Of a stretch of 64,000 bases of DNA, positions 33,407 through 59,103 are shown piece by piece. Within the stretch, counting starts at the first letter, position 1. Every line of letters starts with the position of its first letter. A model generated the notes under the pieces. The model had not been told where the DNA came from. It saw only the letters and a program-made list of their open reading frames with translations, and ran no database searches. The stretch is taken from NCBI RefSeq assembly GCF_014205335.1, contig NZ_JACHNH010000001.1:2722501-2786500 (forward strand), in the 5' to 3' direction. Origin of the DNA: Amorphoplanes digitatis. Lineage in GTDB: Bacteria; Actinomycetota; Actinomycetes; Mycobacteriales; Micromonosporaceae. The translations under genes were made by a program, and so were the position numbers.

Positions 33407-36400
33407 GTGAAGGTGTCTTCTCTCGAAGCGGCCCTGCCCCTGACCCCGCTCCAGGAGGGGATGCTGTTCCACGCGCTCTACGACGACGAGGGCGTCGACG
33501 TCTACGTGGTGCAGGTGTCGCTGCGGCTGGACGGTGCGCTGTCGCCGGACCGGCTGCGGTCGGCCGCCGAGGAGCTGCTGCGGCGGCACTGCGCGCTGCG
33601 GGCCGGTTTCCACACCCGGGAATCGGGGGAGCCGGTCCAGCTGATCCGCCGCGACGTCGCTCTGCCCTGGGCCGAACTGGACCTGCGCGACGTCGCACCG
33701 GCCGAGCAGGAGCGGCTGCTGGGCCGGCGGCAGACGGCCGACCGGGCCGAGCCGTTCGACATGGCCCGCCCGCCGCTGCTGCGCCTCACCCTGGCGCGGC
33801 TGGCGGACGACCGGCACATCCTCGTCCTGACCTGGCATCACATCCTGCTCGACGCGTGGTCGCTGCAACTGGTCCTGCGCGACCTGGTCGCGCTGTACGA
33901 GGGCGAGGAGCTGCCGCCGGCGGTCCCGTTCAGCCGGTATCTGGCCTGGCTGGCCGGCCAGGACCGGGAGAAGGCCGGGCTCGCCTGGGCCGAGGCGCTG
34001 CGCGGGGTGGCGGAGCCGACGCTGGTGGCGCCGGTGAAGCCGGCGACCGGGCCGGCGACGATGGCCGGGCTGGTCGCGGCCGAGCTGTCGCGGGAGGCGA
34101 CGGCGGCGCTGACCGGGTCCGCGCGGTCCACCGGGCTGACCGTCAACACGATCGTGCAGGTCGCCTGGGCGCTGCTGCTGTGCGGCGTGACCGGTCGCGA
34201 CGACGTGATGTTCGGGCAGGCGGTGTCGGGCCGGCCCGCGGATCTCGACGGGGTGGCCGACATCGTCGGCCTGCTGATCAACACGGTGCCGGTCCGGGTG
34301 CGGCTCGATCCGGCCGAGACCCTCGCCGGGCTGCTCGAACGGGTACAGCGCGAGCAGGCCGAGCTGATCACGCACCACCATCTCGGCCTGGCCGCCGTCC
34401 AGCGGCTGGCCGGGCTCAGCGAGCTGTACGACACCGCGGTCATGTTCGCCAACGCCCCCGCGGACTCCTCCGGCGGCGCGGCGCACCGGCTCCGGATCAG
34501 CGCGGAGACCGAGTCGGAGGCCGAGCGGACCGGCGCCACCCACTATCCGCTCAGCCTGACCGCGGTACCCGGGCCGCGGCTGCACCTGGCACTGAGCTAC
34601 CGGGCGGAGTTCTTCGACCGGGACACCGTCGAACGGTTCGCGCGGCGCCTGGTGATGCTGCTGGAGACCTGCGCCGCGGACCCGGCCACGCCGGTGGGCC
34701 GGGTCGGGTTGCTGCCGGAGGCGGAGCTGGCCCAGGTCGTCCGGGAGTGGAACGACACCGGCGTGCCGCTGCCGGAGTCGACCCTGCCGGAGCTGTTCGA
34801 GGCGCAGGCCGCGCGGACACCGGAGGCGACGGCCGTGGTCTTCGAGGGCGAGCGCCTCACCTACGCCGAGCTGGCCGGGCGCGTCGACCGGCTCGCGCGC
34901 GTCCTGCGCGCCCGTGGGGTACGGCCGGGCGACGCGATAGCGGTCGCCGTTCCCCGCTCGATCGAGTTGATCGTGGCCGTGCACGCGGTCGTGGCGGCGG
35001 GCGCGGCGTATGTCCCGCTCGATCCCGAGTACCCGGCGGGGCGTACCGCCGGCATCCTCGCCGACGCGGACCCGGCCCTGCTGATCACCACCGGGACCGT
35101 CGCGGCCGGGCTGCCCCGCTCGCCCGTGCCCCGGCTGCTCCTGGACGCACCGTTGCCGGACGCGCCGGACCGCGCGGCGGCGGCCCGGTGGCCCGCCGGG
35201 CCGGCCTACATCATGTTCACGTCCGGCTCGACCGGGCGCCCCAAGGGCGTCGTGGTGAGCCACGCCGCGATCGTCAACGCGCTCCGCTGGATGCAGGGCC
35301 GGTTCCCGCTCGGCCCGGGCGACCGCATGCTCCAGAAGACCCCGTCGGGGTTCGACGTGTCGGTGCCGGAGCTGTTCTGGCCGTTGCAGACCGGAGCCAC
35401 GCTCGTGGTGGCGGCCCCCGGCGGGCACCAGGACCCGGCCTACCTGGCCGGGCTGATCCAGCGCGAGTCGGTCGACACCGTCCAGTTCGTACCGTCGCTG
35501 CTCGGCGTGTTCCTCCAGGAGCCGGCGGCCGCGGCGTGCGACAGCCTGCGCCGGGTGTTCTGCATCGGCGAGCCGCTTCCGCCGGAGACCGTCAACCTGT
35601 TCCACGAGCTTCTCCCGGCCGGCCTGCACAACCTGTACGGCCCGACCGAGGCGGCCGTGCAGGTGACGCACTGGCCGTGCCGGCCGGTGCCCGCGGGCGC
35701 CGGTGTGCCGATCGGGAGACCGGTGTGGAACACCCGGGTGTTCGTGCTCGACGCGGCGCTGCGGCCGGTGGCGCCGGGCGTCGCGGGAGAGCTGTACCTC
35801 GCCGGGCGGCAGCTGGCCTCCGGCTACGCGCATCGGCCGGCGCTGACCGCGGAACGCTTCGTCGCAAGCCCGTTCGGCGCGGCCGGCGAGCGGATGTACC
35901 GCACCGGCGACATCGTCCGGTGGTCGCCCGGCGGTGACCTGGAATACCTCGGCCGGGCCGACCACCAGGTCAAGATCCGCGGCATGCGGGTGGAGCTCGG
36001 CGAGATCGAGGCGGTGCTGGCCCGGCACCCCGGCGTCGCGCACGTCGCCGTCGTGATGCGCGAGGACCGGCCGGGCGCGAAGCGGCTGGTGGCCTACGTG
36101 GTGCCGGCCGGGCCGCCGGCCGAACCTGGCGAGCTGACCGCGCACGCCGCCGCGACCCTGCCCGGCTACATGGTTCCCGCCGACATCGTCGAGCTGGCCG
36201 AGCTGCCGCTGACCGCGAACGGCAAGCTGGACCGCGCGGCCCTGCCCGCGCCGGCCGTCGCCCGGCCGGGCGGGCGCCCGCCGCACGGGCCCGTCGAGGA
36301 GCTGCTCGCCGGCCTGTTCGCCGAGGTGCTCGGGCAGGCCGGCGCCGGCGCCGAGGACAGCTTCTTCGACCTGGGCGGCGACTCGATCATGTCGATCCAG

Positions 36401-39400
36401 CTGGTCGCGCGGGCCCGCCGCGCCGGTTGGGCGCTGACACCCCGCGACGTCTTCACCCACCGGACGGTCGCCGCGCTGGCCCGGGTCGCCCGGCCCGCGG
36501 CGGCCGCGGCGGCCGAGCACCGGGACGCCGGGATCGGCGACCTGCCGGCCCTGCCGGTCCTGCACTGGCTGAGCGGGCTCGCCGGGCCGGTCGACGACCT
36601 CCACCAGTCGGCGGTGCTGCGGGTACCGGCCGGGATGGACCTGGGCGGCCTCACGGCGGCGGTGCAGGCGGTGCTCGACCGGCACGACGCGCTGCGGATG
36701 CGGTGGACCGCAGCGCCGGGGCCGCGGTGGGCGCTGGACATCGGCCCGCGCGGCTCGGTGCGTGCCGCCGAGTGCGTACGCCGGGTGGACGCGGCCGGCC
36801 TCGCCGGTCCCGCGCTCCGGACGGCGGTCGCGGCCGAGGCGACCCGGGCCCGCGCGGAGCTGTCACCGGGCGAACGGCGGATGCTGCGCTGTGTCTGGCT
36901 CGACCGCGGGCCGCGGAGCGGCGGACGCCTGCTGATCCTGGCGCACCACGGTGTCGTCGACGAGGTGTCTTGGCGCATTCTCGTTCCCGACCTGCGGGCC
37001 GCGTTCCAGGACGAGCCTCGGCTCCTCCCGGTGCCGTTCTCGCTGCGTACCTGGTCGCACCGGATGGCGGCGGCGGCGACGGAGCCGGACCGGGTCGCGG
37101 AGGCGGCACTGTGGACGGAGGTGCTCCGCGGCGGCCCCGGCGACGCCCTGCCGGCGGCCGGGCCGCAGGACGTGTTCGGCGCGGCGCGCAGCCTGTCCGT
37201 CCGGCTCGGCCCGGCGGACACCGCCGCACTGCTCACGGCCGTGCCGGCAGCCTTCCGCGCGGACGCGGAGGACGCCATGCTGACGGCGCTCGCCATGGCG
37301 GTCACCTCGTGGCGGCCCGGCCCGGCCGGCGGCGTGCTCGTCGACGTCGAGGGGCACGGCCGGCAGGACCTGCCCGGCGGCGCCGACCTGTCCCGTACCG
37401 TCGGCTGGTTCACCACCCTGCACCCGGAGCGCCTCGACCCTAAACTGCCCGGCTGGGAGCGGGCCGGGCCCAGCGACCCGCGCCTCGGCGCCGCGCTGAA
37501 GCGGGTCAAGGAGCAGCGCCGCCGGCTGCCCGATCGCGGCCTCGGCTACGGCCTGCTGCGCTACCTCAACCCGCGGACCGCGGCGGTGCTCGCCGCACAC
37601 CCGGCGCCCCGGATCGGCTTCAACTACCTGGGTCGCGTCGCGGGCGACGACGGCGCGGACTGGTCGCCGGCGCCCGAGTCGGACGCCGCCGGGCCGGGCG
37701 CCGGCCCGCGCCTTGCCATGCCGCACACCCTCGGCGTGACCGCCGCGATCGAGGACGGCCCGGACGGGCCGATCCTGACCGCCGCGTTCGCCTGGCCGGA
37801 CCGGCTGCTGACCGTCCATGACGTACGCGCGCTCGGCGAGGCGTGGCTGTCCGCCCTGCGCCTGCTCGGTGCGCACGCGGCGCGGCCCGGTGCCGGCGGT
37901 CTCACCCCGTCCGACGTCCGCCCGGCCGAGGTGGGCCAGGAGGAGCTGTCCCGGTGGGAGGCGTCCCTCGGCGGGCGGGGCCTCGCCGACGTGCTGCCGC
38001 TCACGCCGCTTCAGGAGGGGCTGCTGTTCCACGCCCGCTACGACCGCGCGGTCCCGGACGTCTACCACCTCCAGCTGGTGCTGGAGCTGGACCGCGCGCC
38101 GCGGGTGCCCGCGCTGCGCGCCGCGTGCCAGGCGCTGGTGGACCGGCACGCCGCGCTGCGCGCGGCCTTCCCGGTGCGCGCGGTGGGCGCGCCCGTCCAG
38201 CTCATCCCGGCCACGGTGACCGCGCCGTTCCAGGAACACGACCTGCCGGGACCGGACGGGCTGACCGGCTTCCTCGACGCGGACCTGCTCCGCCGGTTCG
38301 ACCCGGCCCGGCCGCCCCTGCTGCGGTTCGCGCTGCTGCGGCTGGGCGGTGACCGCCACGCGCTGGTGCTCACCCTGCACCACCTGCTGGCCGACGGCTG
38401 GTCCCTTCCGCTGCTGCTGCGCGAGCTCGGCGAGCACTACGCGGGCGACGCCACCCGCCCGGCGCCCCCGCCCGTGCGGCTCTTCCACGAGTGGCTGGCC
38501 GGGCAGGACACGGCCGCCGCGGAGGCGGCCTGGCGGGCGGCGCTCGCCGGGCTCGAAGCGCCGACGCTGATCGCGCCCGGCGGCGACGCGGCCGGGCTGC
38601 CCACCCTGCCCCGGCGCCGCACCGCCGACCTGCCCGCCGAGCTGACCGGCCGGATCGCCGCGCGGGCCCGCGCCTGCGGCCTCACGGTGAACACCGTGCT
38701 CCAGGGCGCCTGGGCCGTGGTGCTCGGCGCGCTCACCGGCCGCCGCGACGTGGTGTTCGGCGCCACCGTCTCGGTGCGCCCGCCCGAGCTGCCCGGCGCC
38801 GAGGAGATGGTCGGGCTCTTGATCAGCACGGTGCCGGTGCGGGTCCGGTTGACGCCGGGCGCCGGCCTGGCCGGCCTGCTGGCCGAGGTGCAGGCGGAAC
38901 AGGCGGCCCTGAACCGGTACGCCTATCTGGGGCCGGGGGCCGTGCAGCGGCTCGCCGGGCTGGGGCCGCTCTACGACACGTCGATGGTCTTCGAGAACTT
39001 CCCCGACGCCGCCGCCGACCCGGCGCCGGGCGACGAGCGGCTGCCGGTGGCCCAGTTCTCCGGGCGGGACGCCTACCACTACCCGCTCAAGCTGCTGGCG
39101 GCGCCGGGCGAACGGCTCCGCCTGGAGATCAGTCACCGTCCCGAGCTGGTACCGGACCCGCTGGCCGCCGAGGCGATGGACCGGTTGACGGCCGTCCTCG
39201 AAGGATTCGCCGCCGACCCGCACCGGCAGCCCGACCCCGGGCCGGCGGTCGTGGACCGGGTCGGCGAGCTCGCCGGGGAGGTCCTCGGCGCCGGCCGGCT
39301 CGGCGCCGGCGCCGACTTCTTCGCCGCGGGTGGCGACTCCCTGCTGGCGCTGCGGCTGGCCGGGCGGATCCGCGAGGTACTCGGCGCGGACGTCGACCCC

Positions 39401-39472
39401 GCCCTGATCTTCCGGCGCCGGACGCCGGCCGGCATCGCGGCCGGCCTCGCCGCCCCGCCGGTACCGCGCTGA
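33407..39472 (+). CDS. Nonribosomal peptide synthetase NRPS1: C-A-T-E-C-T
   Basis: 2021 residues. C domain (about 1-440; [16 protein letters not shown], active-site HHILLDA at 144-150, Ala replacing the usual Gly). A domain (about 460-950; [33 protein letters not shown]). T domain with Ser993 in [12 protein letters not shown] domain (about 1040-1480; [10 protein letters not shown] at 1180, [20 protein letters not shown]). A second C domain (about 1500-1900; [21 protein letters not shown] at 1658) is followed directly by a T domain with Ser1978 in [10 protein letters not shown]. The second module has no A domain, so its residue must be loaded in trans. The E domain predicts a D-configured first residue. 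A-domain pocket residues by eye are D-V-P-Q-F-I-L-V-Q, matching no code I know. The GTG start has a weak SD. Starting with a C domain suggests an acyl starter or an upstream partner. Confidence 0.93.
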
Positions 39473-39507
39473 CCGGGCCTTTTCGGGCGGCAATTGGCGC
39501 TGCCGGA

Positions 39508-39535
39508 TTGCCCGGCAGTTGCCGGATGCGTTGCC
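39508..39535 (+). repeat. Three TTGCC direct repeats upstream of the SDR gene
   Basis: TTGCC occurs at 39508, 39519 and 39531, spacing 11 and 12 bp, within ATTGCCC, GTTGCCG and GTTGCCT. They lie in the 119-bp gap after NRPS1, the longest spacer in the plus-strand NRPS operon. Helically phased heptamers are the kind of site bound by SARP activators, but no SARP gene is in the window. Confidence 0.35.
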
Positions 39536-39591
39536 TGGGCCGCGGTCCGGGCCACTGACACCATCGGAATTCGGTGAAGCGGAGGAAAACC

Positions 39592-40329
39592 ATGCGAACC
39601 ATCGTGATTTCGGGTGCGTCCAGCGGAATCGGAAACGCGACCGCGAAACGATTCGCCCGGGCCGGTGACCGCGTTTACAACCTCGATATCAAGCCGCCGG
39701 AAACGGATTCCGCCGCCGGCACCTGGATCGAGACCGACGTGGCCGACTGGTCCGCCGTCGACCGGGCGGTCGCCCGGGTCGACGAGGCGCACGGCGGTAT
39801 CGACGTGGCGATCGCCAACGCCGGCATCAGCATCCGGCACGGCGTCCTGGAGATCGCCGAGACGGACGCCCGCCGGGTCGTCGACGTCAACCTGCTCGGT
39901 GTGCTGGCGATGTGGCGGTCGGCCGCACGCCGGATGGCCGGCCGGGGCGCGGGCGTGCTGCTGGCCACCGCCTCGGTCAACGGCCACCGCGGATACCCGG
40001 GTTACGCCGACTACAACGCCACGAAGGCCGGCGTCGCGGCGCTCTGCCGCACGTTCGCGATGGAGCTCAGCCCGGCGATCCGGGCGGCCTGCGTGTCACC
40101 GGGCGCGGTGCTGACGCCGATGCAGCTCGCCGAGTACACCCCGGAGATGCTGGTCGCCGTCAACGCACGCATCCCGGCCGGCCGGCACGCGGATCCGGAC
40201 GAGATCGCCGCCGCGTTCTTCTATCTGGCGTCGCCCGAGGCCCGCTTTCTCACCGGCCAGGAAATCGTCATCGACGGTGGCGAGATCGCAGGTGCCACCA
40301 CCAGCGAATTCAACCGGAGGATCGCGTGA
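39592..40329 (+). CDS. SDR-family oxidoreductase within the NRPS operon
   Basis: 245 residues from the ATG at 39592, with GGAGG 5 nt upstream; earlier in-frame ATGs are out of register with it. Classical SDR: SGASSGIGNA cofactor loop, IANAGIS, catalytic Ser in LLATASVNGHRG and Tyr-Asn-Ala-Thr-Lys in GYADYNATKAG, and DPDEIAAAFFYLASPEARFL near the end. It is coupled by a GTGA overlap to the 2-oxoglutarate oxygenase. A reasonable role is oxidation or reduction of a side-chain hydroxyl or keto group on an amino-acid precursor. Free versus carrier-bound substrate cannot be told. Confidence 0.87.
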   Translation: MRTIVISGASSGIGNATAKRFARAGDRVYNLDIKPPETDSAAGTWIETDVADWSAVDRAVARVDEAHGGIDVAIANAGISIRHGVLEIAETDARRVVDVNLLGVLAMWRSAARRMAGRGAGVLLATASVNGHRGYPGYADYNATKAGVAALCRTFAMELSPAIRAACVSPGAVLTPMQLAEYTPEMLVAVNARIPAGRHADPDEIAAAFFYLASPEARFLTGQEIVIDGGEIAGATTSEFNRRIA

Positions 40330-41342
40330 GAGACACGCTACGAAAAGACCGGTACATCATGTCCGCCGAGGAGGCGTGCGCGCTAGCGGGCGCCGTCGAT
40401 GAGCTCCGGGCGGGCGGGAGCTCACCGGCCGGACCCGACTTCTACGACCGGCACCCGTCCAGTCATGAACTGCTGCCGGCCGGGCTGTCCCGGTTCCTCG
40501 ACGAGTTCCGCCGCGACGGGAACGTGCCGGTGTGCGAGGTGCGCGGCTTCCCGGTCGACGACGCCGCCGTGGGACCGACCCCCGACCACTGGGATCTGCG
40601 GGACGGGCTCGAATCGACCGCCGAGCTCGACATCGCCGTGGCGATGTGCGCCTCGGCACTCGGCGAGCCGTTCGCCTGGGCGACCCTCCAATGTGGCCGG
40701 CTGGTGCAGGACGTCTTCCCGATCCGCGGCGACGAGCGGCGCGAGAGCGGCCACGGCAGCGACGCGTTCCTCCAGTTCCACACCGACGACGCGTTCCGGC
40801 CGGACTCGTGCGACTACATCCTGCTCTTCGGGGTCCGCAACCACGACGCGGTGCCGACGTACGTCTCCGCGGTGCGCGACGTCGAACTCGGCGACGACGA
40901 CCGGCGGGTGCTGTCCGAGGCGCGGTTCCACATCATCCCGGACGACGAGCACATCCGGCAGCTCGAACTGCGCGCGCCCGGCGACCCCGCGCTGCGCAAG
41001 GCGATCGAGATGCGCGACCGGCCGGCGCCGGTCCCGGTGCTGTTCGGCAACCCGTTCGAGCCGTGCATCCGGCTCGACGCGCCGTACATGAGCTGCGTCG
41101 GCGACGATCCGGCCGCGCGGCGGGCGCTGGACGCGCTCGCGGCGGAGCTGCACCGGGTCCGGCGGCCCCTGGTCGCGGCTCAGGGCACCCTGCTGATCCT
41201 GAACAACCGCAGCGTCGCGCACGCCCGGGAGTCGTTCACCGCGCGCTACGACGGCACCGACCGCTGGCTCCGGAAGATCATCGTCTCCCGCGACCCGGGC
41301 GAGGTCCGCAAGCCGGTCTCCGCCGACCGGGTCCGGCTGTAG
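40326..41342 (+). CDS. Fe(II)/2-oxoglutarate-dependent amino-acid hydroxylase, VioC/AsnO-like
   Basis: 338 residues from the GTG at 40326, with GGAGG 5 nt upstream and a 4-bp overlap with the SDR gene. Clavaminate-synthase-like fold: iron ligands His152 and Asp154 in QFHTDDAFRP and a distal His299 in NNRSVAHARESF, with the 2-oxoglutarate-binding Arg in the RYDGTDRWLRK segment. VioC (arginine), AsnO (asparagine) and related enzymes usually have His-x-Glu at the first site; Asp is accepted in the wider superfamily. These enzymes beta- or gamma-hydroxylate free amino acids later used by an NRPS. Substrate not determinable here; arginine-like substrates are attractive given the methyltransferase at 57030. 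Confidence 0.88.
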   Translation: MRDTLRKDRYIMSAEEACALAGAVDELRAGGSSPAGPDFYDRHPSSHELLPAGLSRFLDEFRRDGNVPVCEVRGFPVDDAAVGPTPDHWDLRDGLESTAELDIAVAMCASALGEPFAWATLQCGRLVQDVFPIRGDERRESGHGSDAFLQFHTDDAFRPDSCDYILLFGVRNHDAVPTYVSAVRDVELGDDDRRVLSEARFHIIPDDEHIRQLELRAPGDPALRKAIEMRDRPAPVPVLFGNPFEPCIRLDAPYMSCVGDDPAARRALDALAAELHRVRRPLVAAQGTLLILNNRSVAHARESFTARYDGTDRWLRKIIVSRDPGEVRKPVSADRVRL

Positions 41343-41381
41343 TACGCCGCCCCGCCGCCCGACCCGTTCCGAAAGGACTCC

Positions 41382-44300: not shown

Positions 44301-47300
44301 GCGTTCGTGGTGCTCGACCGGCTGCCGCTGACCACGACCGGGAAGGTGGACCGGCGGGCGCTGCCCGCGCCCACATTCGCCGGCAGCCGTGAACACCGTC
44401 CGGCGGGCACACCGCGGGAGGTGGTCCTGTGCGGGCTGTTCGCCGAGGTGCTCGGTGCGGCCGAGGTCGGCGCTGACGATGATTTCTTCGAGTTGGGCGG
44501 TGACTCGATCACCGCGATCCGCCTGGCCGGCCGGGCCCGGGAGGCCGGGCTCGTCCTGAGCCCCCGCGACGTGTTCACCGCGAAGACCGTGGCCGCGCTC
44601 GCGCGGGTGGCCACCGCACCGCAGGCCGCCGCCGAGGCCGTCAACGGCCCGCTGATCGTGCTCGACGACGAGGACCGGGCGGCGGTCGAGGCCCGCTTCC
44701 CGGCGGCCGGTGAGATCCTGCCGGCCGCACCGCTCCAGCACGGCCTGCTCTTCCACGCGCTCTACGACCGCGGCGACGGCCCGGCGGACCCGTACGTCGG
44801 CCAGATCCCGCTGATGCTGTCGGGCCCGGTCGACCCGCATCGGTTGCGGGCCGCGGTGGAGGGACTCGTCGCCCGGCACGCGAGCCTGCGCGCCGGTTTC
44901 GCGGTCTGCCCCGGCGGCGCGGTGGTGCAGGTCGTGGCGGACCGGGTGACGGTGCCGTGGCGCGAGCTCGACCTGTCGGCGAATCCCGGCGGGCTCACCG
45001 CGATGCTAGCGGCGGACCGGCTGGTGCGCTTCGACCCGGCGGCACCGCCGCTGGTGCGCGCGACGCTGGCGCGGCTCGCCCCGGATCGCTTTGCCTTCGT
45101 GCTGACCAGCCACCACCTGCTGTGGGACGGCTGGTCGATGGCGCGGGCGCTCGGCGACCTCTTCGCGCTGTACCGGGGCGAGTCCGGACTGCCGCCGGCG
45201 GTGCCGTTCCGCGACTACCTGGCGTGGCTGGCCGGCCGGGACAGGACGGCGGCCCTGGCGGCGTGGCGCCGGGCCCTCGCGGGCCTGGACGGCCCGACCC
45301 TGGTGGCGCCGGGCGCATCGGCGGGCGCCCTGCCCGCGCGGATCGCCGCCGGCCTGGGCGAGCGGGCGTCGGCCGGGGTGGCGGCCGTGGCCCGGGCGAA
45401 GGGCCTGACGCTCAACACGGTGGTCCAGGGCGCCTGGGCGCTGGTGCTGGCGCAGCTGACCGGCCGCTGGGACGTGGTGTTCGGGTCGACCGTGTCGGGC
45501 CGGCCGGCCGAGCTGCCGGGCGCGGCGGACATCGTCGGGCTGCTCATCAACACGATCCCGGTGCGGGTACGCATCGACCCGGCCGAGCCGCTGGACCGCC
45601 TGCTCGCCCGGTTGCAGGCCGAGCAGGCCGCGCTGACCCCGCACCACCACGTCGAGTTGCCGGCCCTGCGGCGCGAGGCCGGGCTCGGCGAACTGTTCGA
45701 CACCTCCACCGTCTTCCAGAACGCGCCGTGGAACGACGACGTCCTGCGCGGCGCCGGGCTCGACGTCGGCGTCCTCGACGACGATGCGCGCGGCTTCACC
45801 CACTACCCGCTGAGCCTCGACGTGCTGCCCGGCGCGGACCTGCGGCTGGAGCTCAGCTACCGCCCGGACCTGTTCGACGAGGGTTTCGCCCGGCAGGTGA
45901 CCGGCGGCCTGCGCCGGGTCCTGGAGACCTTCGCGGCCGACCCCGGCCGGCCCGCCGGCCACGTCGACCTGCTGCCGGCCGCCGACCGGACCCGGCTGCT
46001 CTCGGACTGGAACGACACGGCCCGCCCGCTCCCGGACGACACCGTCGTCGACCTGTTCGAACGTCAGGTCCGGGCCACCCCGGACGCGACCGCGCTGGTA
46101 CACGACACCCTCGCGCTCAGCTTCGCCGAGCTCAACGCCCGCGCGAACCGGGTCGCCCACCGGTTGATCGGCCTCGGCGCCGGCACCGACGACCTGGTGG
46201 CGGCGCTGCTGCCCCGGTCGGCGGACGCCGTCGTGGCAATCCTCGGCGTGCTCAAGGCCGGCTGCGCCTACCTGCCGATCGAGCTGTCCTGGCCGGCCGA
46301 GCGCATCCGCGCCCTGCTCGCCGACGTCGCCCCGGCGGTGGTGCTGACCGGCGGCGACGCGCCGGAGGCCGGCGGCGCCACCGTCCTGCCCGTCGAACGG
46401 GCCACGGCCGACGGGCCCGCGGACGACCCCCGGACGCCGCTGCGGCCGGGGCACCTCGCCTACGTGATTCAGACCTCCGGCTCGACCGGCCGGCCGAAGG
46501 GCGTGGCGGTCACCCACCGCAACGTCGTGGCCATGTTCCACGCGCAGAACGACGGGTACATGCGCGCGGCCGCCGCGGGCCGCCGCCTGCGGGTCGCGCT
46601 GACGTTCGGGCTGGGCTTCGACGCCGCCTGGGCCGACCTGCTGCGGATGATGGCCGGCCACGAACTCCACCTCATCGGCGAGGAGCTGCGCGGTGACGCG
46701 CAGGCCCTTATCGCGTACGGGAGAGAGCACGCCGTCGATTCGCTCAGCGTGCCGCCGCTGCACGCCCGGCAGCTGCTGGACGCCGGCCTGCTGAGCGCGC
46801 CGGGGCACCGGCCGAGGCTGCTGTCGCTCGGCGGCGACAAGGTCGACGAGTCGCTGTGGTGCGACCTGGCCGCGACCGGCGCCGAGGTCTACAACTTCTA
46901 CGGCCCCACGGAGTGCACGGTGGACTCCACCTGCGCCCACATCACGAGCGGGACCGGCACCTCCATCGGCCGCCCGATGGGCAACAAGCAGGCGTACGTG
47001 CTGGACCCGGCTCTGCGCCCGGTGCCGCCGGGCGTGACCGGGGAGCTGTACCTGGCCGGCGAGGGGGTGGCCCGGGGCTATCTCGGCCGGCCCGGGCTGA
47101 CCGCCGCCCGGTTCGTGGCCTGCCCGTTCGGCCCCGCCGGCGCGCGGATGTACCGCACCGGCGACCTGGCCCGCTGGACCGTGGACGGCGAGCTGGACTT
47201 CCTCGGCCGCGCCGACCACCAGGTGAAGATCCGTGGGTACCGGATCGAGCCGGGCGAGATCGAGACGGTGCTGCGTGCTCACCCGGCCGTCACACAGGCG

Positions 47301-50300
47301 GTGGTGCTCGCGAGGGAGGGACGCCTGGTCGCCTACGTGGTCGGCGAGGTGGAGGGCCTGCGGCGGCACGCGGCCGCGCTGCTGCCGGACTACATGGTGC
47401 CGGCCGCGTTCGTCGCGCTCGACCGGTGGCCGCTGACCAGCACGGGGAAGATCGACCGGCGGGCACTGCCCGCGCCCGCGTACGGCGCCGGCCGGGTACA
47501 CCGCCCGGCACGCACCCCGCGCGAGGAACTGCTCTGCGGGCTGTTCGCACGCGTGCTCGGCGTCGCCGAGGTGGGCATCGACGACGACTTCTTCGAGCTG
47601 GGCGGCGACTCGATCGTCGCCATCCAGCTGGTCACCCGGGCCCGGCAGGCCGGGCTCGCGTTCAGCCCGCGCGAGGTCTTCGCGGGCCGGACCGCCGCGG
47701 CGCTCGCCGCGCTCGCCGGCGAGGTACGCGACGACGCCGGGACACCGGCCGGGCCGCTCGTGGTGCTCGCGGACGACGAGCGGGCGGCCGTCGAGGCCCG
47801 CTACGAGGCCGTCGAGGAGATCCTGCCGGCCACGCCGCTGCAACAGGGCCTGCTGTTCCACAGCCTGTACGACGAGACCGACACCGACCCCTACCTCGTG
47901 CAGGACGCGCTGCTGCTCGCAGGCGAGCTGGACCCGCGCCGGCTGCGGGCCGCGGTCGACGCTCTGGTCGCCCGGCACGCGAGCCTGCGTGCGGGATTCG
48001 TGGTGTGCCGCGGCGGCGACGTCGTCCAGGTCGTGGCGGACCGGGTGACGGTGCCGTGGCGTGAGCTCGACCTGTCGGACGACCCGGGCGGACTGGCCCG
48101 GGTGCGGGAGGCCGACCGGGCCGAGCGCTTCGACCCGGCGGTGCCGCCGCTGATGCGGGCGACGCTGGCGCGGCTGGCGGCCGACCGGCACGTGCTGGTG
48201 CTGACGAGCCACCACCTGCTGTGGGACGGCTGGTCGATGGCGCGGGCGCTCGGCGACCTGTTCGCGCTGTACCGGGGCGAGCCCGCGCTGCCGGATCCGG
48301 TGCCGCTGCGGGACTACCTCGCTTGGCTGGCCGGACGGGACCGGAACGAGGCGCTGGGTGCGTGGCGGCAGGCGCTTCTCGGCCTGGACGGGCCGACCCT
48401 GGCGGCCGCGGGTGCGGACCTGCCGGCGGGGGTCTCGCCGGCGCGGGTGGCCGGAGGCCTGGGTGAGCGGGAGTCCGCGCGCGTGGCGTCCGCGGCCCGG
48501 GCCAGGGGCTTGACGCTCAACACGGTGGTGCAGGGCGCGTGGGCCCTGGTGCTGGCGCAGCTGACGGGTCGCTGGGATGTGGTGTTCGGGTCGACGGTGT
48601 CGGGCCGGCCGGCCGAGTTGGCGGGCGCGGCGGAGATCGTGGGTTTGTTGATCAATACGATTCCGGTGCGGGTGCGCATCGACCCGGCCGAGCCGTTGGA
48701 CCGACTGCTGGCGCGGGTGCAGGCCGAGCAGGCCGCGCTGATCCCGTTCCACCACCTCGACCTGCCGGCGGTGCGGCGGGAGGCCGGCCTCGACGACCTG
48801 TTCGACACCACCATCGCGTTCCAGAACGCGCTCTGGGGCGTCGAGTCGATGAGCTTCGGCGACCTCACGGTCGCGCCGCTCGGCAACGAGGACAGTGGTT
48901 TCACGCACTATCCGCTCAGCATGATCGTGACGCCGGGCGCGGAGCTGCGGTTCGAGATCAGCTACCGGCCGGACGTGTTCGACCGGCACCTGGTCCGGCG
49001 GGTGGCCGACCGGCTCGGCGGTGTCCTGGAGGCCTTCGCGGCCGATCCCGGCCGTCTCGTCGGCCGTCTTGATCTTTCGTCCGCGGACGAGCGGTCGTTG
49101 CTGGCGGGGTGGAACGACACGGACCGCCCGCTGCCGGACGCCACGGTGGTGGGGCTGTTCGAGCGGCAGGCGGCGCTCACTCCCGACGCGATCGCGGTGG
49201 TCCACGGGAAGGACGAGGTCAGCTACGCCGAGCTCAACGCGCGGGCCAACCGGATGGGCCGGGCACTGGCCGCCGCGGGTGTCGGCGCGGAAAGCCGGGT
49301 CGGGCTCGCGTTGCCGCGAGGCGTGGACTGGGTGGTCGCGGTCCTGGCGATCCTGAAGGCGGGCGGCGCGTACGTGCCGGTGGACCCGTCCTGGCCGTCC
49401 TCCCGGGTGGAGAACCTGCTTGCCGACACCGTCTGCGTTGTGGACCGCGGCTGGCCGGATACCGGGGACGCGTCGAACCTCGGGTTCCCGGTCATGCCGG
49501 GGAACCTTGCCTACGTGATGTTCACGTCCGGTTCGACCGGCGGGCCGAAGGGTGTCGAGGTCACCCACGCCGATGTCGCGGCCTTGGCGCGGGACGGCCG
49601 GTTCGGGGCGGGTCATGAGCGGGTGCTGGTGCATTCGGCGTTGGCGTTCGACGCCTGGACGTATGAGTTGTGGGTGCCGCTGTTGTCGGGCGGCTGCGCG
49701 GTGCTGGCTCCGAACGAGCCGCTGACTCCGGTGGTGGTGCGGGAGCTCGGGGTTACGGCGTTGTTCCTGACGACGGCGTTGTTCCATCTGTTCGCCGCCG
49801 ATGACCCGGAGTGTTTCGCCGGGTTGCGGGAGGTCTGGACCGGCGGTGAACAGGTGGACCCCGAGGCCGCCGCCAAGATCCGCGCAGCCTGTCCGAATCT
49901 AACCATTGTGGACGTCTACGGGCCGACGGAGACGACGACGTTCGCGACCGCCCACCTGGTCGCCCCGGGTCGCCCGGTCCCGTCGCCGTTGCCGATCGGC
50001 CGTCCGCTGGACAACACCCGGGCGTTGGTGCTGGATGGGGCGTTGCGGCCGGTGCCGCCGGGCGTGGTCGGCGAGTTGTATCTGGCCGGTGCCGGTGTCG
50101 CCCGTGGCTATCTGGGCCGGCCCGGGCTGACCTCGTCACGGTTCGTGGCCTTCCCGGGCGGTGGCCGGATGTACCGCACGGGTGACCTGGTGCGGTGGAC
50201 CGTGGACGGGGATCTGGTGTTCGTCGGCCGCGCCGACCAGCAGGTGAAGATCCGTGGTCACCGGATCGAGCCGGGTGAGGTCGAGACCGTGCTGCGTGCT

Positions 50301-50840
50301 CACCCGGCCGTGGCGCAGGCGGTGGTACTGGCGCGAGAGGGACGCCTGGTCGCCTACGTGGTCGGCGAGGTGGAGGGCCTACAGGAGCACGCGGCGGATC
50401 TTTTGCCGGACTATCTGGTCCCTGCGGCGTTCGTGGCACTCGACCGGCTGCCGCTGACCACGACCGGGAAGGTGGACCGGCGGGCCCTGCCCGCCCCGGT
50501 ATACGCCGGCAGCCGTGAACATCGGCAGGCGGGGACCGCGCGGGAGGTGCTGCTGTGCGGGCTGTTCGCCGAGGTGCTCGGTGCGGCCGAGGTCGGCGCC
50601 GATGATGACTTCTTCGAGCTGGGCGGCGACTCGATCACCGCCATTCGCCTGGCCGGCCGGGCCAAGGAGGCCGGGCTCGTCCTGACTCCTCGCGACGTGT
50701 TCACCGCGAAAACCGTCGCCGCGCTCGCATCCGTGGCCGTCGAGATCGAGCAGGACACGGGCCAGGATGCCCCACCCGAACCGCTCGTCACGCTCAGCGA
50801 CGAGGAGCGGGCGGAGATCGAAGCGCTGTGGGCCGAATGA
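41382..50840 (+). CDS. Nonribosomal peptide synthetase NRPS2: T-C-A-T-C-A-T-C-A-T
   Basis: 3152 residues. An N-terminal T domain without an A domain (Ser35 in [11 protein letters not shown]) is followed by three C-A-T modules. C active sites: HHILWDG (233), HHLLWDG (1244), HHLLWDG (2277). T serines: 1042, 2077, 3084. Each A domain has a TSGSTG loop and a GKxDRRAL C-terminal lysine motif. Pocket residues by eye: A1 and A3 both D-A-Y-F-W-G-V-T-F, close to the Ile-type code DAFFYGITFK; A2 D-A-A-S-S-G-F-V-D, unassigned. All C domains begin LPAxPLQxGLLFH, a D-donor-type signature, although only NRPS1 shows an E domain. There is no release domain. The protein ends in [18 protein letters not shown], which looks like the first residues of a T-C linker. 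ATG 41385 is an alternative start. Confidence 0.94.
42373..44602 (+). repeat. Module-1 copy of a near-identical NRPS2 C-A-T segment
   Basis: This stretch, from the C-domain [20 protein letters not shown] through the whole A domain to the end of the T domain, recurs at 48505-50728. In the A and T regions the offset is exactly 6126 bp (2042 codons), with long runs of identical DNA including third positions. The least similar part is around 43280-43370. Confidence 0.88.
48505..50728 (+). repeat. Module-3 copy of the near-identical NRPS2 C-A-T segment
   Basis: Partner of 42373-44602. A-domain pocket residues are the same in both copies. The A domain of the intervening module 2 is clearly different, so the identity reflects duplication or gene conversion between modules 1 and 3 only. 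C-domain sections are shared more widely. Confidence 0.88.
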
Positions 50841-50871
50841 CGCAGACCGAATCGAAGGGCAGGAGAAACCC

Positions 50872-51084
50872 ATGACAAACCCGTTCGAGAACGAGGACCA
50901 GTCCTACCTCGTCCTGGTCAACGACGAGGGCCAGCACTCGCTCTGGCCCGGCTTCGCCGAGGTGCCGGCCGGCTGGACCGTCGCACACGGCCCGGGCCCG
51001 CGCGACGCCTGCCTCGGGTACGTCGACGAGCACTGGACGGACATGCGCCCGAAGAGCCTGATCGCGGCCATGAAGGCACGATGA
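50872..51084 (+). CDS. mbtH: MbtH-family NRPS accessory protein
   Basis: 70 residues from the ATG at 50872 (SD AGGAG). Full family pattern: [33 protein letters not shown], and [17 protein letters not shown]. MbtH proteins bind A domains and raise their solubility and activity. It lies 31 bp after NRPS2 and overlaps the next gene by 4 bp. It may serve all A domains of the locus. Confidence 0.97.
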
Positions 51085-51776
51085 AACCGACAGTGTTGAT
51101 CTGCCTGCCGTTCGCCGGGGCGGGCGCCTCGTTCTTCCGCAAGTGGCGGCGGTCGGCACCGGCGGGCCTGACGATCCTGGCCGTCCAGCTCCCCGGCCGG
51201 GAGGAGCGGTTCGCCGAGCCGGCGCACACCGACGTCGGGTCGGCGGCCGCCGCCCTCTGCCCCGCGCTGGTACCGCAGCTCGACGGGGCCGGCCGGGTGG
51301 TGCTGTTCGGCCACTCGCTCGGCGCCGAGCTGGCCTACGAGCTCACCTGGCGGCTCGTCGAGCGCGGCGTCGCCGTCGACCGGCTCGTCGTCAGCGGCGC
51401 ACCCGGCCCCCGCGATCGCGGCTTCGAACGGGTCGGCCACCTGGACGACGACGGCTTCATCGACGGGCTGCGCCGGGTCACCGGCTACGTGCACGGCGCC
51501 CTGGACCACCCCGGGATGCGCGAGATCGTGCTCCCGGTGCTGCGCGCCGACAACCGGATGCACGAGTCCTACGTCTCGGAGCACGACGGGCCGCTGCCGG
51601 TGCCCATCACATCGGTGCGGGGCCGGCGCGACGAGCTGGTGAGCGCCGCCGAGGCGCGGCAGTGGTCCGCCGAGACCGACGCGGGCTTCCGCTACGCCGA
51701 GGTCGACGGCGGCCACATGTATCTGACCGACTCGCCCGGCAGCGTCCTCGCCACGGTGGTGGGCCATGACGCGTGA
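51081..51776 (+). CDS. Type II thioesterase (first copy)
   Basis: 231 residues. Typical external thioesterase: [15 protein letters not shown] at the N-terminus, [11 protein letters not shown], nucleophile elbow GHSLGAE (Ser near 79), an Asp in RGRRDELV and His in VDGGHMYL. These enzymes remove wrong or stalled groups from T domains. The nucleophile is Ser, not the Cys of SyrC/CmaE-type aminoacyl shuttles. It overlaps mbtH by 4 bp and the P450 by 11 bp. Confidence 0.94.
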
Positions 51777-53040
51777 CAGATGCCCGATCCTGTCCGGCGC
51801 GCCGGACCTGGTGGACCCCGCCGTCCACTGCGGACCCGAGGCGCACGCACTGTTGCGGCGGCTGCGCGCCGAGGACGGCCTGCACTGGCAGCAGGTGGAC
51901 GCCGGCCGGGGCTTCTGGTCGGTCACCACCTACGCCGAGGCCGACGCCGTGCTGCGGGACACCCGGACGTTCACCTCCGAACGCGGCACGCTGCTCGATC
52001 TGCTCGGCACCGACGACCCGGCCGGCGGTCACCAGCTCGCCGTCACCGACCCGCCGCGGCACACCCGCCGCCAGGCGCGGCTCAAACGGGCGCTGACCAT
52101 CAAGGCGGTCGAGCGGCAGCGGGGCAGGATCCGCCCGCTGATCGTCGAGCTGCTGGCGCCGCTCGGCGACGGCGGCGTCTTCGACTTCGGCGCCGCGATG
52201 CTGGCGCTGCCGATGTGGGTGACCGGCACCATCATGGGCCTGCCGCGCGCCGACTGGGACTGGCTGACCCGGATCACCACGATGTGCATCGCCGCCGACG
52301 ACCCGGAGTACCAGCTCGCCGGCGGCCGGGAGGTCACCCTGAAACGTGCGCACCTCGAGCTCTTCGGCTACTTCCAGGACGTGGTGCGGCACCGCGCCGA
52401 GAACCCCGGCGACGACCTGCTCAGCGCCCTGCTGGCCACCCGCTTCGAGGGCAGGGAGATGACCCTCGGCGAGGCCGTCTCCAACTGCTACAGCCTGCTG
52501 CTGGGCGCCAACGTCACCACGCCGCACGCGCCGAGCTTCGTACTGGCCGAGTTCATCGGGACCGACGTGCTCGCCGACTGGGCCGCGCACCCCGAGCTCA
52601 ACCGACAGGGCTGCGCCGAGGCGCTGCGCTGGGCCTCCCCGGTCAACCACGTGATGCGGTACGCCACCACCGCGACCGTGGTGCGCGGCACGCCGATCGC
52701 CGCCCGGGACGCCGTGGTGGTGTGGCTCGGCTCGGCCAACCGCGACGAGCGGGTGTTCCCCGGCGCGGACCGGTTCGACATCCGGCGCCGGCCGAACAAG
52801 CACCTGGCGTTCGGCATCGGCCCGCACTACTGCGTCGGGCACAGCGTCGCGAAGGTGAGCCTCGACGTCCTCTTCACCGAGCTCCTGGGCCGCTACCAGG
52901 ACTTCGCGCCGGCGGGCCGGCCGGAGCGGCTGCTGTCCACCTTCGCGTCCGGCTACAAGCACGTACCGATCACCGCCCGCCCACGACGCGGCGGGCGCAA
53001 ACCTGGAGGCTCCCTTGTCGGACGAAATCGCGGTGCGTGA
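51766..53040 (+). CDS. Cytochrome P450, probably acting on carrier-bound amino acid
   Basis: 424 residues. Heme loop FGIGPHYCVGHSV with Cys about 356, EALRW (ExxR) near 285, and an I-helix segment LLLGANVTTPHAPSF in which the usual acidic residue before the Thr pair is missing. It is followed at once by a free carrier protein and a free A domain. This P450-PCP-A cassette is used in several NRPS pathways (for example novobiocin NovH/NovI) to beta-hydroxylate an aminoacyl-S-PCP. The last 26 bp overlap the carrier-protein gene, so its C-terminal tail (GRKPGGSLVGRNRGA) is dictated partly by the overlap. Confidence 0.92.
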   Translation: MTRDRCPILSGAPDLVDPAVHCGPEAHALLRRLRAEDGLHWQQVDAGRGFWSVTTYAEADAVLRDTRTFTSERGTLLDLLGTDDPAGGHQLAVTDPPRHTRRQARLKRALTIKAVERQRGRIRPLIVELLAPLGDGGVFDFGAAMLALPMWVTGTIMGLPRADWDWLTRITTMCIAADDPEYQLAGGREVTLKRAHLELFGYFQDVVRHRAENPGDDLLSALLATRFEGREMTLGEAVSNCYSLLLGANVTTPHAPSFVLAEFIGTDVLADWAAHPELNRQGCAEALRWASPVNHVMRYATTATVVRGTPIAARDAVVVWLGSANRDERVFPGADRFDIRRRPNKHLAFGIGPHYCVGHSVAKVSLDVLFTELLGRYQDFAPAGRPERLLSTFASGYKHVPITARPRRGGRKPGGSLVGRNRGA

Positions 53041-53257
53041 CGGCGCCGGCCGGATCGAGCTGGTGCGCGAGCTCTGGCTGGAGGTCCTCGGCCTGGACGA
53101 GGTCGCGGACGATGTCAACTTCTTCGAGGTGGGCGGCGACTCGCTGCGCCTGGTCGCGCTCGTCGAACGGATCCGGGCGCGGGCCGGGCAGCCGGTGCGG
53201 ACCATGGACGTGCTGCGCGCCAACACTGTACGGGCGCAGGCAGAGCTGATCGGATGA
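53015..53257 (+). CDS. Free-standing peptidyl carrier protein
   Basis: 80 residues starting at a TTG at 53015, chosen because GGAGG lies 5 nt upstream and the protein then matches a full T domain. Phosphopantetheine site Ser43 in FFEVGGDSLRLVALV. It overlaps the P450 gene by 26 bp and the A-domain gene by 4 bp. It should be loaded by the downstream A domain and present the residue to the P450. Confidence 0.92.
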   Translation: MSDEIAVRDGAGRIELVRELWLEVLGLDEVADDVNFFEVGGDSLRLVALVERIRARAGQPVRTMDVLRANTVRAQAELIG

Positions 53258-54750
53258 CCTCGCTGGACGGGCTCTTCCGGGCCACCGCCCGCAGGTTCCC
53301 GCAGCGGGTCGCGGTCCGCGACGGCACGGCCGAGCTGACGTACGCGCAGCTCGCCGCGGCCGCCGCCGAACAGGCGCGCGAGCTGCGCCGCGCCGGGGTG
53401 ACGCCCGGTGACACGGTCCTGGTGGGGCTGGCACCGTCGGTGGCCGAGGCGGTCGCCGTGCTCGGCACGGTCTGGGCCGGCGCCGCCTACGTCGGCGCCG
53501 ACCTGAGCCTGCCGGCCGCGCACCTGGCCCGCATCGTCGCCCGGTGCGCACCGGCCGCGGTCCTGGCCGGCGACCGGCCGGCCGTGGTGCGGAACATCCC
53601 GGCGGTCGCCACCTGGGAACCGTCGTGGGCGGGCGGCGCGGAGCCGCCGGTGGCGCCCGATCCGGAACGGCTCGCCTACGTGGCCTTCACCTCGGGCAGC
53701 AGCGGCGAACCCAAGGGCGTCTGCATCCCGCACCGGGCCGTCCTGCGGCTGGTCCGCGGCGCTCACTACGCGCGGCTCGGCCCGGGCGAGCGGATGCTGC
53801 GGCTGTCCCCGCTCGCGTTCGACGCCTCCACGCTGGAGCTGTGGGGCGCGCTGCTGACCGGGGCGACGCTCGAGGCGTACCCCGGCGCCCTGCCGGCGCC
53901 CAGCGAGCTCGGCGAGTTCCTGATCGACCGGGAGGTGACCGTCGCCTGGCTCACCGCGGGCCTGTTCCGGCTGTTCGTGGACTTCGCACCCAACGCGCTG
54001 GGCGGGCTGCGGCAACTGCTGACCGGCGGCGACGTGGTGCCGCACGAGCACGCGGCCCGGCTGCTCACCCGCCATCCCGGCCTGACGATCACCAACGGCT
54101 ACGGCCCCACCGAGAACACCACGTTCACCACCACCCACTCGATCTCCCGCCCGGAGGAGGTCGACGGCCCGCTGCCGATCGGCACGCCGGTGCCCGGCAC
54201 CCGGGTGTACGTGCTCGACGAGTCGGCGCGGCCGGTGCCGCCGGGCGAAGTCGGCGAGCTCTACGCCGCCGGCGACGGACTCGCGACCGGCTACCTGCGT
54301 GACCAGGCCGAGACGCGGCGGCGGTTCGGGCGCTTCTCGCCGGACGTACCGGAGCGCCTCTATCGCACCGGCGACCTGGTGCGGCGCGATCCGGCCGGCC
54401 GGCTGCACTTCCTGGGCCGCGCCGACGATCAGATCAAGCTCCGCGGCTACCGGGTCGAGCCGGGCGCGGTGCGCGCGGCGATCCTGGCCCACCCGGGAGT
54501 CCGTGACGCGCTGGTCTTCGCCACCGGGACCGACAGCGCCGACAAGCGACTGGTCGCCGCGGTGGTGCCGGCCGGCACGTACCCGCTCGACCCGGCCGTG
54601 GTCCGGTCCATGCTGGCCGACCGGCTTCCGGGCTACCTGGTGCCGACCCTGTGGGCGGTGGTCGACCGGCTGCCGGTGACCGCCAACGGCAAGGTGGACC
54701 GCCAGGCGCTGGCCGCGGTGGCCGGACACGCGGGGCAGGACAGGCCCTAG
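53254..54750 (+). CDS. Free-standing NRPS adenylation domain
   Basis: 498 residues with no C or T domain attached. Motifs: [82 protein letters not shown]. Pocket residues by eye are D-A-L-W-L-G-G-T-F, which agrees well with the classic valine-type code DAFWIGGTFK. It is expected to charge the adjacent carrier protein with Val or a similar branched residue for P450 hydroxylation, and may supply one of the A-less modules of NRPS1 or NRPS2. The stop codon shares CTAG with the convergent ftsX stop. Confidence 0.93.
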   Translation: MTSLDGLFRATARRFPQRVAVRDGTAELTYAQLAAAAAEQARELRRAGVTPGDTVLVGLAPSVAEAVAVLGTVWAGAAYVGADLSLPAAHLARIVARCAPAAVLAGDRPAVVRNIPAVATWEPSWAGGAEPPVAPDPERLAYVAFTSGSSGEPKGVCIPHRAVLRLVRGAHYARLGPGERMLRLSPLAFDASTLELWGALLTGATLEAYPGALPAPSELGEFLIDREVTVAWLTAGLFRLFVDFAPNALGGLRQLLTGGDVVPHEHAARLLTRHPGLTITNGYGPTENTTFTTTHSISRPEEVDGPLPIGTPVPGTRVYVLDESARPVPPGEVGELYAAGDGLATGYLRDQAETRRRFGRFSPDVPERLYRTGDLVRRDPAGRLHFLGRADDQIKLRGYRVEPGAVRAAILAHPGVRDALVFATGTDSADKRLVAAVVPAGTYPLDPAVVRSMLADRLPGYLVPTLWAVVDRLPVTANGKVDRQALAAVAGHAGQDRP

Positions 54751-55610
54751 ACGCGGAGGTAGAAACGGAGGGTGATCCAGGCGGTGACCGCGCTGACGGC
54801 GGCGCCGACCACCGCCATCAACGGCAGCATCAGCCACACGTCCCCGTTCTGAATCGGGATCAGCGAATGCAGCCGGCCGTCGATCAGGATGGTCTTGCCG
54901 GCGAACAGCGCACCGAAGCCGAGCACCGCACCCACGACGCCGGCGACCATCGCCTCCAGCACGAACGGCGCCTGAATGAACCAGTTCGACGCGCCGACCA
55001 GTCTCATGACGGCCACCTCCTGGCGCTTGCTGTAGGCCGCCAGCTGGATCGTGTTGCCCACCAGCAGCAGCGCGGCCATCGCCATCACCGCGGCGACGGC
55101 CAGCGCGAGCAGTTGGATCGCGGCGAAGATGTCGAACACCTTCTCCAGCAGTTGCCGCTGGTCGATGATCTGGTCGACGCCCGGCCGGGTGCCGAACCGG
55201 GCGGCGAACTCCCGGTAGCCCTCGGGGTCGCGAAGCTTGACCCGGAAGGATGCCGGCAACTGCTCCGGCCGAACGGTCGCGATGAGGTCGGGCGATTCGG
55301 ACCACATCTCCCGGAACCTGGCGAACGCCTCCGCCTTGCTCTCGTAGATCGTTTCCCGCACCATCGGGCTGGAACGCAGTGCGGCGCCGAGGCCGTCGCG
55401 CTGGGCGTCCGTCGCGTCCCCGTTCAGGAACACCTTGACCTCGACGTTGCCGTAGTAGAGGTCCTTCATCCGGTCGACCTGTGCGTACAGCAGCACGCCG
55501 GCGCCGAGCATGGTGAGCGACACCGCCAGCGTGATGATCATGGCGATGGTCATTGTGGCGTTGCGCCACAGGCCGATCAGGACCTCGTTGAGGACGTACT
55601 TGACCCGCAT
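54747..55610 (-). CDS. ftsX: FtsX-family cell-division ABC permease, without adjacent ftsE
   Basis: 287 residues. Cytoplasmic N-terminus and TM1 (TMTIAMIITLAVSLTMLGAG), the extracellular domain (about 50-165) with VEVKVFLNGDATDAQRDGL and FRVKLRDPEGYREFAARFGT, then three helices with YSKRQEVAVMRLVGASNWFI, the FtsX signature. FtsX with its ATPase FtsE activates cell-wall hydrolases. In actinobacteria ftsX normally sits beside ftsE; here it follows a 7-TM protein gene and a GntR gene, 15 bp after the latter, inside a peptide biosynthesis locus. It may be a second, cluster-associated copy, possibly for self-protection, or the only copy relocated. The window cannot decide. Confidence 0.92.
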   Translation of the reverse strand: MRVKYVLNEVLIGLWRNATMTIAMIITLAVSLTMLGAGVLLYAQVDRMKDLYYGNVEVKVFLNGDATDAQRDGLGAALRSSPMVRETIYESKAEAFARFREMWSESPDLIATVRPEQLPASFRVKLRDPEGYREFAARFGTRPGVDQIIDQRQLLEKVFDIFAAIQLLALAVAAVMAMAALLLVGNTIQLAAYSKRQEVAVMRLVGASNWFIQAPFVLEAMVAGVVGAVLGFGALFAGKTILIDGRLHSLIPIQNGDVWLMLPLMAVVGAAVSAVTAWITLRFYLRV

Positions 55611-59101: not shown

Positions 59102-59103
59102 AA

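Follow-up and report, generated by a model that had tools for sequence, protein, structure and literature searches.

We analysed a nonribosomal peptide synthetase (NRPS) operon in a 64,000-nucleotide stretch of the Amorphoplanes digitatis genome (contig NZ_JACHNH010000001.1, positions 2,722,501 to 2,786,500), hereafter the window, with positions counted from its first letter. The operon encodes two NRPS proteins built from condensation (C), adenylation (A), carrier (T) and epimerization (E) domains, and each has a carrier without its own A domain (A-less) at one end. A thioesterase (TE), a cytochrome P450, a free carrier and a free A domain are encoded downstream. Docking tails and domain classes point to NRPS2 to NRPS1 as the most likely protein order, against gene order. 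The features of the operon are:

33407 to 39472, plus strand: NRPS1 (C1-A1-T1-E1-C2-T2), predicted second and terminal subunit, from domain models.
37988 to 39229, plus strand: C2, a post-E (DCL-clade) C domain, from Pfam, a tree and its relatives.
39257 to 39442, plus strand: T2, the A-less last carrier with no docking tail behind it, from Pfam, carrier class and tail matrix.
39574 to 40329, plus strand: SDR oxidoreductase, from Pfam.
40326 to 41342, plus strand: VioC/GntD-like Fe(II)/2-oxoglutarate oxygenase, from domain models.
41382 to 50840, plus strand: NRPS2 (T3-C3-A3-T4-C4-A4-T5-C5-A5-T6), predicted first subunit, from domain models.
41382 to 41597, plus strand: T3, an N-terminal A-less carrier in the class found before E or DCL-type C domains, from carrier profiles.
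50784 to 50837, plus strand: putative donor docking tail of 18 residues at the NRPS2 C-terminus, from a position matrix.
50872 to 51084, plus strand: MbtH-like protein, from Pfam (on a longer frame from 50767) and the gene call.
51081 to 51776, plus strand: type II thioesterase (TEII) with Ser elbow GHSLG, from Pfam and alignment.
51766 to 53040, plus strand: cytochrome P450, a probable beta-hydroxylase of a carrier-bound amino acid, from Pfam, homologues and a tree.
53015 to 53257, plus strand: free carrier protein (fT), from Pfam, with a TTG start and GGAGG just upstream.
53254 to 54750, plus strand: free A domain (fA) with pocket DALWLGGTF, from Pfam and pocket alignment.

From the MbtH-like gene through the free A gene, neighbouring genes overlap by a few bases. 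The SDR and oxygenase genes between NRPS1 and NRPS2 are absent from an earlier note on this DNA. A gene finder favoured 33461 as the start of NRPS1; we retained 33407, because the later start would remove the first C motif.

The earlier note had NRPS1 ending in C-T and NRPS2 opening on T, neither with an A domain of its own, and the operon closing with a P450, a free carrier and a free A domain; Pfam domain calling and the gene calls bear this out. In NRPS1 the domain search found three Condensation-family stretches, one AMP-binding and two PP-binding; of the three Condensation-family stretches, the second is an epimerase by TIGR01720 and a 10-residue motif. Across the C2-T2 piece (37907-39472), Pfam matched residues 28-441 to Condensation and 451-512 to PP-binding and detected no AMP-binding domain, for which no space is left. 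NRPS2 has a carrier at its first residue, and C, A and T domains follow, three of each; Pfam's five AMP-binding stretches are fragments of the three A domains. No A domain is concealed ahead of T3, because this carrier begins the protein and just 39 bases separate it from the gene before. A3 and A5 share the pocket code DAYFWGVTF and A4 reads DAASSGFVD; neither the A1 nor the A4 code could be given an assignment, and in the A1 pocket the alignment and the by-eye reading differ by a shift at one position. A3 (42972-44381) and A5 (49137-50531) are 88% identical in protein and 90% in DNA, and T4 and T6 are 90% identical; in NRPS2, modules 1 and 3 have the look of a recent duplication or conversion.

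A line of this kind could have arisen by decay, with the A domains of T2 and T3 lost and a shorter product, or none, being made. Consistent with this, no second C2-T2 end, and no relative spanning C2 and T2, was found among the matches listed in 354 genomes of the family. At 1e-60, 147 of these genomes (own included) match the piece, some matches extending to query residues 457-482, beyond the T2 start; the six longest-reaching partial matches, on re-reading, all lie within ordinary C-A-T modules. However, the reading frames are open, T2 and T3 both retain the GGDS serine, C2 retains HHLLADG, and A-less C-T or T-C proteins recur in loci with the same P450 cassette (counted below). We thus consider decay very improbable.

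The earlier note had T2 and T3 abutting at the protein interface. That was a supposition, and tail, head, C-domain class and carrier class point instead to NRPS2 preceding NRPS1. As a reference for docking tails we used ten multi-protein NRPS clusters of the Micromonosporaceae, drawn from genomes with C domains resembling C2 (20 stretches) and giving 28 rows of NRPS open reading frames (ORFs), with three broken ORFs and one edge-cut row set aside. Fifteen subunits carry a tail (12 by a strict pattern, three looser ones by eye) and the next subunit is C-first in all 15, whereas the tail is absent from terminal subunits (9/9). In a position matrix built from the 12 strict tails, the NRPS2 end scores 28.1, the best site in the protein and equalled by none of 2000 shuffles of the last 45 residues; the NRPS1 end scores 2.3, equalled by 837 of 2000. 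For comparison, the three looser tails, which lie outside the matrix, score 25.9-30.7, the training tails 42.6-51.6, and the runner-up NRPS ORF end among the loci fetched from the own genome 14.0. The N-terminal 22 residues of NRPS1 resemble the heads of receiving subunits.

Domain classes agree with this order. A quick tree without bootstrap, covering 94 C domains and a sample of eight E domains, contained a DCL clade (n = 45, support 99) made up of all 14 post-E C domains from outside the window, 16 that come first in their protein, 10 that follow a T domain and all five C domains of the window. Eight of the 10 'after T' members belong to one cluster type (L170, L172, L178 and L180; L numbers denote our loci), and DCL-type C after T therefore occurs elsewhere too. 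Relatives of C2 directly follow an E domain in all 19 non-self loci (one per genome). The C domains that open first subunits in L176 (1408-10701) and L186 (6617-19051) lie outside the DCL clade that includes C1. Because of this placement, we judged it unlikely that the upstream acyl-CoA ligase (31868-33340) serves lipo-initiation at C1.

Carrier classes were scored with profiles of 36 carriers that precede E domains and 33 that precede other C domains, as E minus C in bits, and the profiles fully separated their training sets (36/36 and 33/33). T1 (+40.9), T3 (+22.8), T4 (+23.3), T5 (+33.8) and T6 (+25.5) fall on the E-class side, and T2 (-22.9) and the free T (-7.8) on the other. Ten carriers were held out, each located before a DCL-clade C domain with no E domain, and all 10 score toward the E class (4.7 to 43.5). 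By these scores T6 suits C1, and T2 does not suit C3.

With the proteins in the opposite order, NRPS1 to NRPS2, T2 and T3 would abut and the hydroxylated residue would enter there, by T2-to-T3 transfer or at a tandem-carrier site. Gene order speaks for it, as do L044, L045 and L046, where a C-T protein stands directly before a T-C-A-T protein and the A domain and P450 are homologous to those of the window. However, those C domains of L045 and L046 that are in the tree fall outside the DCL clade (none from L044 is included), a donor tail is missing from NRPS1, and NRPS2 does not begin C-first. An unknown donor would also be required for C1, which does not lie near first-subunit C domains in the tree, and the carrier class of T2 does not suit C3. 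We regard this arrangement as distinctly unlikely.

The genes that close the operon recur as a cassette. The earlier note described the free A pocket as Val-like; it reads DALWLGGTF, presumably a Val code. Best PDB matches of the P450 are two CYP125MRCA entries followed by 4l0e (194 bits) and 3mgx (176 bits), presumably P450sky and OxyD, enzymes working on carrier-bound amino acids, and by these matches the P450 is related in sequence to that kind. At 1e-110 it has homologues in 20 of 354 family genomes, and at 1e-120 in five of 394 class genomes; both counts include the own genome, outside which 25 places were listed and 20 neighbourhoods fetched. The free A domain has at least six close relatives at 60-70% identity (L043-L048) and a further, fragmented one in L112. 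L043 preserves the order TE (63%), P450 (73%), free T (70%) and A (70%). In L044, L045 and L046, a C-T protein whose carrier is like the free T comes before a T-C-A-T protein with an A domain like the free A; in L047 the models scored only the T-C-A-T start. The pocket DALWLGGTF is shared by L043, L044, L045 and L046, with DALWIGGTF (L to I) in L047 and DALFMGCVV in L048. The detoxin/rimosamide literature yielded no name for the product class of L044-L047.

Among 23 cassette loci scanned (L043-L047 and L204-L223, minus L210, apparently the L047 record, and the short L211), three are without any C domain (L208, L214, L223); L112, with its fragmented frames, and L048, without a P450, were omitted. 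A C-T or T-C start occurs in 14 of the remaining 20 (L044-L047, L204, L205, L207, L209, L212, L213, L215, L216, L219 and L222), and A-less carriers occur in two (L236 and L238) of 20 control NRPS loci (L224-L243), which were the best listed C-domain match from each of 20 genomes (Fisher p 0.00024). After similar loci and cluster types were merged by eye, the counts are 8/14 and 2/20 (p 0.006). A T-T flag in control L240 was left uncounted as A-less because the protein resembles a polyketide synthase hybrid by eye. This association and the P450 matches support the earlier proposal that the cassette supplies an A-less carrier in trans, and the association is why we favour delivery in trans.

How the residue would be delivered turns on the thioesterase beside the P450. 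Nineteen TE homologues lie no more than 200 bases from a P450 with an identity of 45% or higher; 13 of them have a Cys elbow (L204, L205, L206, L207, L209, L212, L214, L216, L217, L218, L219, L220 and L222) and six a Ser elbow (L043, taken from the tblastn region since the gene call is short, L044, L046, L047, L210 and L208). In L213, L215, L221 and L223 a Cys protein lies 1.3 to 5.5 kb distant, and L045 has no TE adjoining its P450. The Cys-elbow TEs form a 20-member clade (support 100/100; 16 called by pattern, four by alignment), and the window TE groups separately with the Ser TEs of L043, L044, L045 and L046 (100/99); a Cys variant at L047 19348 was too short for this tree. In the P450 tree, labelled by locus so that L208, L213, L215, L221 and L223 count as Cys with a non-adjacent TE, a single branch (98) unites the window with L043-L047 and sits among P450s of Cys-TE loci. 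This nesting makes it probable that the Cys partner is the ancestral state, with a single loss. The Cys-elbow clade (GHCGSAL and kin; for example, L209 11167-11958) sits in loci with P450/A-T cassettes, where its members are candidate aminoacyl shuttles.

SyrC/CmaE shuttles use a Cys nucleophile. The window TE has GHSLG in its place, and both window thioesterases have Ser elbows in the alignment, as the earlier note had stated; they are two of seven TE homologues in the own genome (1e-5), all seven with Ser elbows. With GHSLG and GGHMY, the window TE has the GHSxG Ser elbow and catalytic His of LgnA-type TEIIs, a combination also found in hydrolytic TEIIs and hence not diagnostic for the LgnA type. 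LgnA, a TEII with Ser77, is reported to shuttle aminoacyl groups (Thr) between carriers (PMC8748450), so a Ser elbow does not preclude transfer. The puzzle that the earlier note saw in Ser nucleophiles is thus partly answered: the wider family usually pairs its P450 with a Cys-elbow TE and a Ser enzyme is reported to shuttle, but in the branch of the window no Cys TE stands beside the P450.

Hydrolysis is also viable, because the window TE is an ordinary Ser enzyme outside the Cys clade. The TE would then release free beta-hydroxy-Val from fT, A3 or A5 of NRPS2 (DAYFWGVTF) would re-activate it, and the A-less carriers would be loaded otherwise, for example by an NRPS2 A domain in trans. Hydrolytic release is the echinomycin Qui18/Qui15/Qui14 model (PMC3578932) and is proposed for polyoxypeptin (PMC3943440). 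This route leaves both A-less carriers without a source, and the co-occurrence of such carriers with the P450 cassette argues against it; we see it as possible, though unlikely.

From the domain order, the tail, the domain classes, cassette conservation and co-occurrence with A-less carriers we infer, at a probability of roughly 55%, an NRPS2 to NRPS1 line with A-less carriers at both ends, one or both of them filled by the TE-P450-T-A cassette. NRPS2 would start on the naked carrier T3, with three extensions following, and its docking tail would pass the chain to NRPS1, which begins C-first. There, one residue would be added and epimerized by NRPS1 itself (A1-T1-E1), and then the last residue on the A-less C2-T2; this order would make the A-less carriers the first and last sites of the line. 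In the cassette, the free A would load Val or a Val-like residue onto the free T and the P450 would hydroxylate it there, following family precedent: Qui18 loads Trp, and Qui15 hydroxylates Trp only when carrier-bound, according to the excerpt of PMC3578932. The Ser TEII would hand the residue on in the manner of LgnA. T2 resembles the C-T acceptors of the relatives and T3 their T-C starters, and both are candidate receivers.

Besides gene order and the layout of L044-L046, several points weigh against this reading. The 15 reference tails come after E domains, whereas the NRPS2 tail comes after T. NRPS2 is without an E domain, although C3, C4 and C5, like C1 in NRPS1, are DCL-type and its carriers T3-T6 belong to the pre-E class, which leaves the donor stereochemistry unexplained. 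C1 has the motif HHILLDA, not HHxxxDG, and no orthologous NRPS1/NRPS2 pair that would test the order directly was found among the matches listed in the 354 family genomes. The comparison of cassette and control loci counts the A-less pattern in the same loci in which it was spotted, and its controls are the top-scoring C domain per genome, not random modules, a choice that may favour ordinary modules. The window TE, outside the Cys clade, may merely hydrolyse. In bripiodionen, loss of a TEII that is 36% identical to LgnA was without effect on deletion, and the A-T protein itself was proposed to make the transfer, in the excerpt of PMC10956176.

We also put forward, as an unlikely and more speculative extension, that one branch of P450 hydroxylation cassettes lost an ancestral Cys-elbow shuttle. 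In its place, either the hydroxylation carrier would have been fused to the line (L044-L046, C-T before T-C-A-T), or a Ser TEII (the window and L043) would carry beta-hydroxy-Val to A-less carriers, in the window at both ends of a line that runs in reverse of gene order.

Syringomycin biosynthesis has a halogenase where the window has a P450, and its shuttle has a Cys where the window has a Ser. In the excerpts of PMC8949500 and PMC8748450, syringomycin SyrB1/SyrC and coronamic acid CmaE are like the window in that a residue is modified on or moved via a separate carrier, and the last module of SyrE has no A domain. The excerpts of four papers (PMC7539972, PMC8552735, PMC8748450, PMC10956176) describe for WS9326A/rotihibin a C-T without A, a separate A protein and a TEII as proposed shuttle; NRPS1 likewise has C-T with no A domain between or after, and a stand-alone A protein lies in the same operon. 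Unlike these systems, the window has separate A and T proteins, a P450 in the cassette and two A-less sites on two proteins. Legonindolizidine LgnA/LgnB/LgnD shares with it the Ser-elbow TEII and a line requiring residue transfer to another carrier, but LgnB is a fused A-T (excerpt of PMC8748450).

Polyoxypeptin PlyC/PlyQ/PlyR/PlyS and echinomycin Qui18/Qui15/Qui14 have the same four activities, A, PCP, P450 and TE (PMC3943440, PMC3578932), with a free A and a free PCP in polyoxypeptin (PMC3943440). The published models, as excerpted, differ from our proposal in having hydrolytic release, and A domains are reported for the six polyoxypeptin modules. In ramoplanin and enduracidin a stand-alone A-T serves a module without a working A in trans (PMC8949500); according to that excerpt it has a 300-residue N-terminal extension, whereas the window free A begins at the A domain. 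Across these sources, the models of hand-over are hydrolysis (echinomycin, PMC3578932; barbamide; proposed for polyoxypeptin, PMC3943440), shuttling (SyrC, CmaE and LgnA with its Ser77, PMC8748450) or transfer without a TE (pacidamycin PacP/PacH, PMC8748450; proposed for bripiodionen, PMC10956176); the literature covered also includes PMC6920865. Individually, A-less modules loaded in trans, TEII shuttles and P450 cassettes are known already; P450 cassette, Cys-elbow TE and A-less carriers joined were not found in listings of open-licence PubMed Central papers.

The oxygenase between the two NRPS genes scores below curated equivalog cut-offs (GntD 314.8 against 345, VioC 250.3 against 418.6), and on these scores is a member of the same superfamily as VioC/GntD, different or broader. 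Homologues at 1e-20 occur in 90 of 354 family genomes (own included). An SDR homologue, 72-75% identical, lies beside the oxygenase homologue in six of 14 fetched neighbourhoods (L142-L144, L146-L148), and no NRPS1/NRPS2 pair is annotated in these 14. Four of the six loci with both genes have an A4-like A domain nearby. The pair may make a modified arginine-type residue.

Downstream, the last four bases of the free A gene also belong to an FtsX-like gene on the minus strand (54747-55610). A second cluster nearby (57030-64000 on the minus strand, and L011) has its own free A (DAFWIGGTF) and free T. An A-less C-T opens its C-T-C-A-T protein, a TE follows by eye, and an AurF-like protein and acyl-CoA enzymes were also named by eye.

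If the NRPS2 to NRPS1 line is right, the two naked carriers do not meet, both ends of the line are loaded in trans, and a product predicted from gene order would be misleading. We offer as a rule that this P450 cassette often signals a nearby A-less carrier, with a Cys-elbow TE as the usual candidate shuttle and one branch having a Ser TE or none. Such a rule would make hydroxylated residues easier to predict in clusters still unread.

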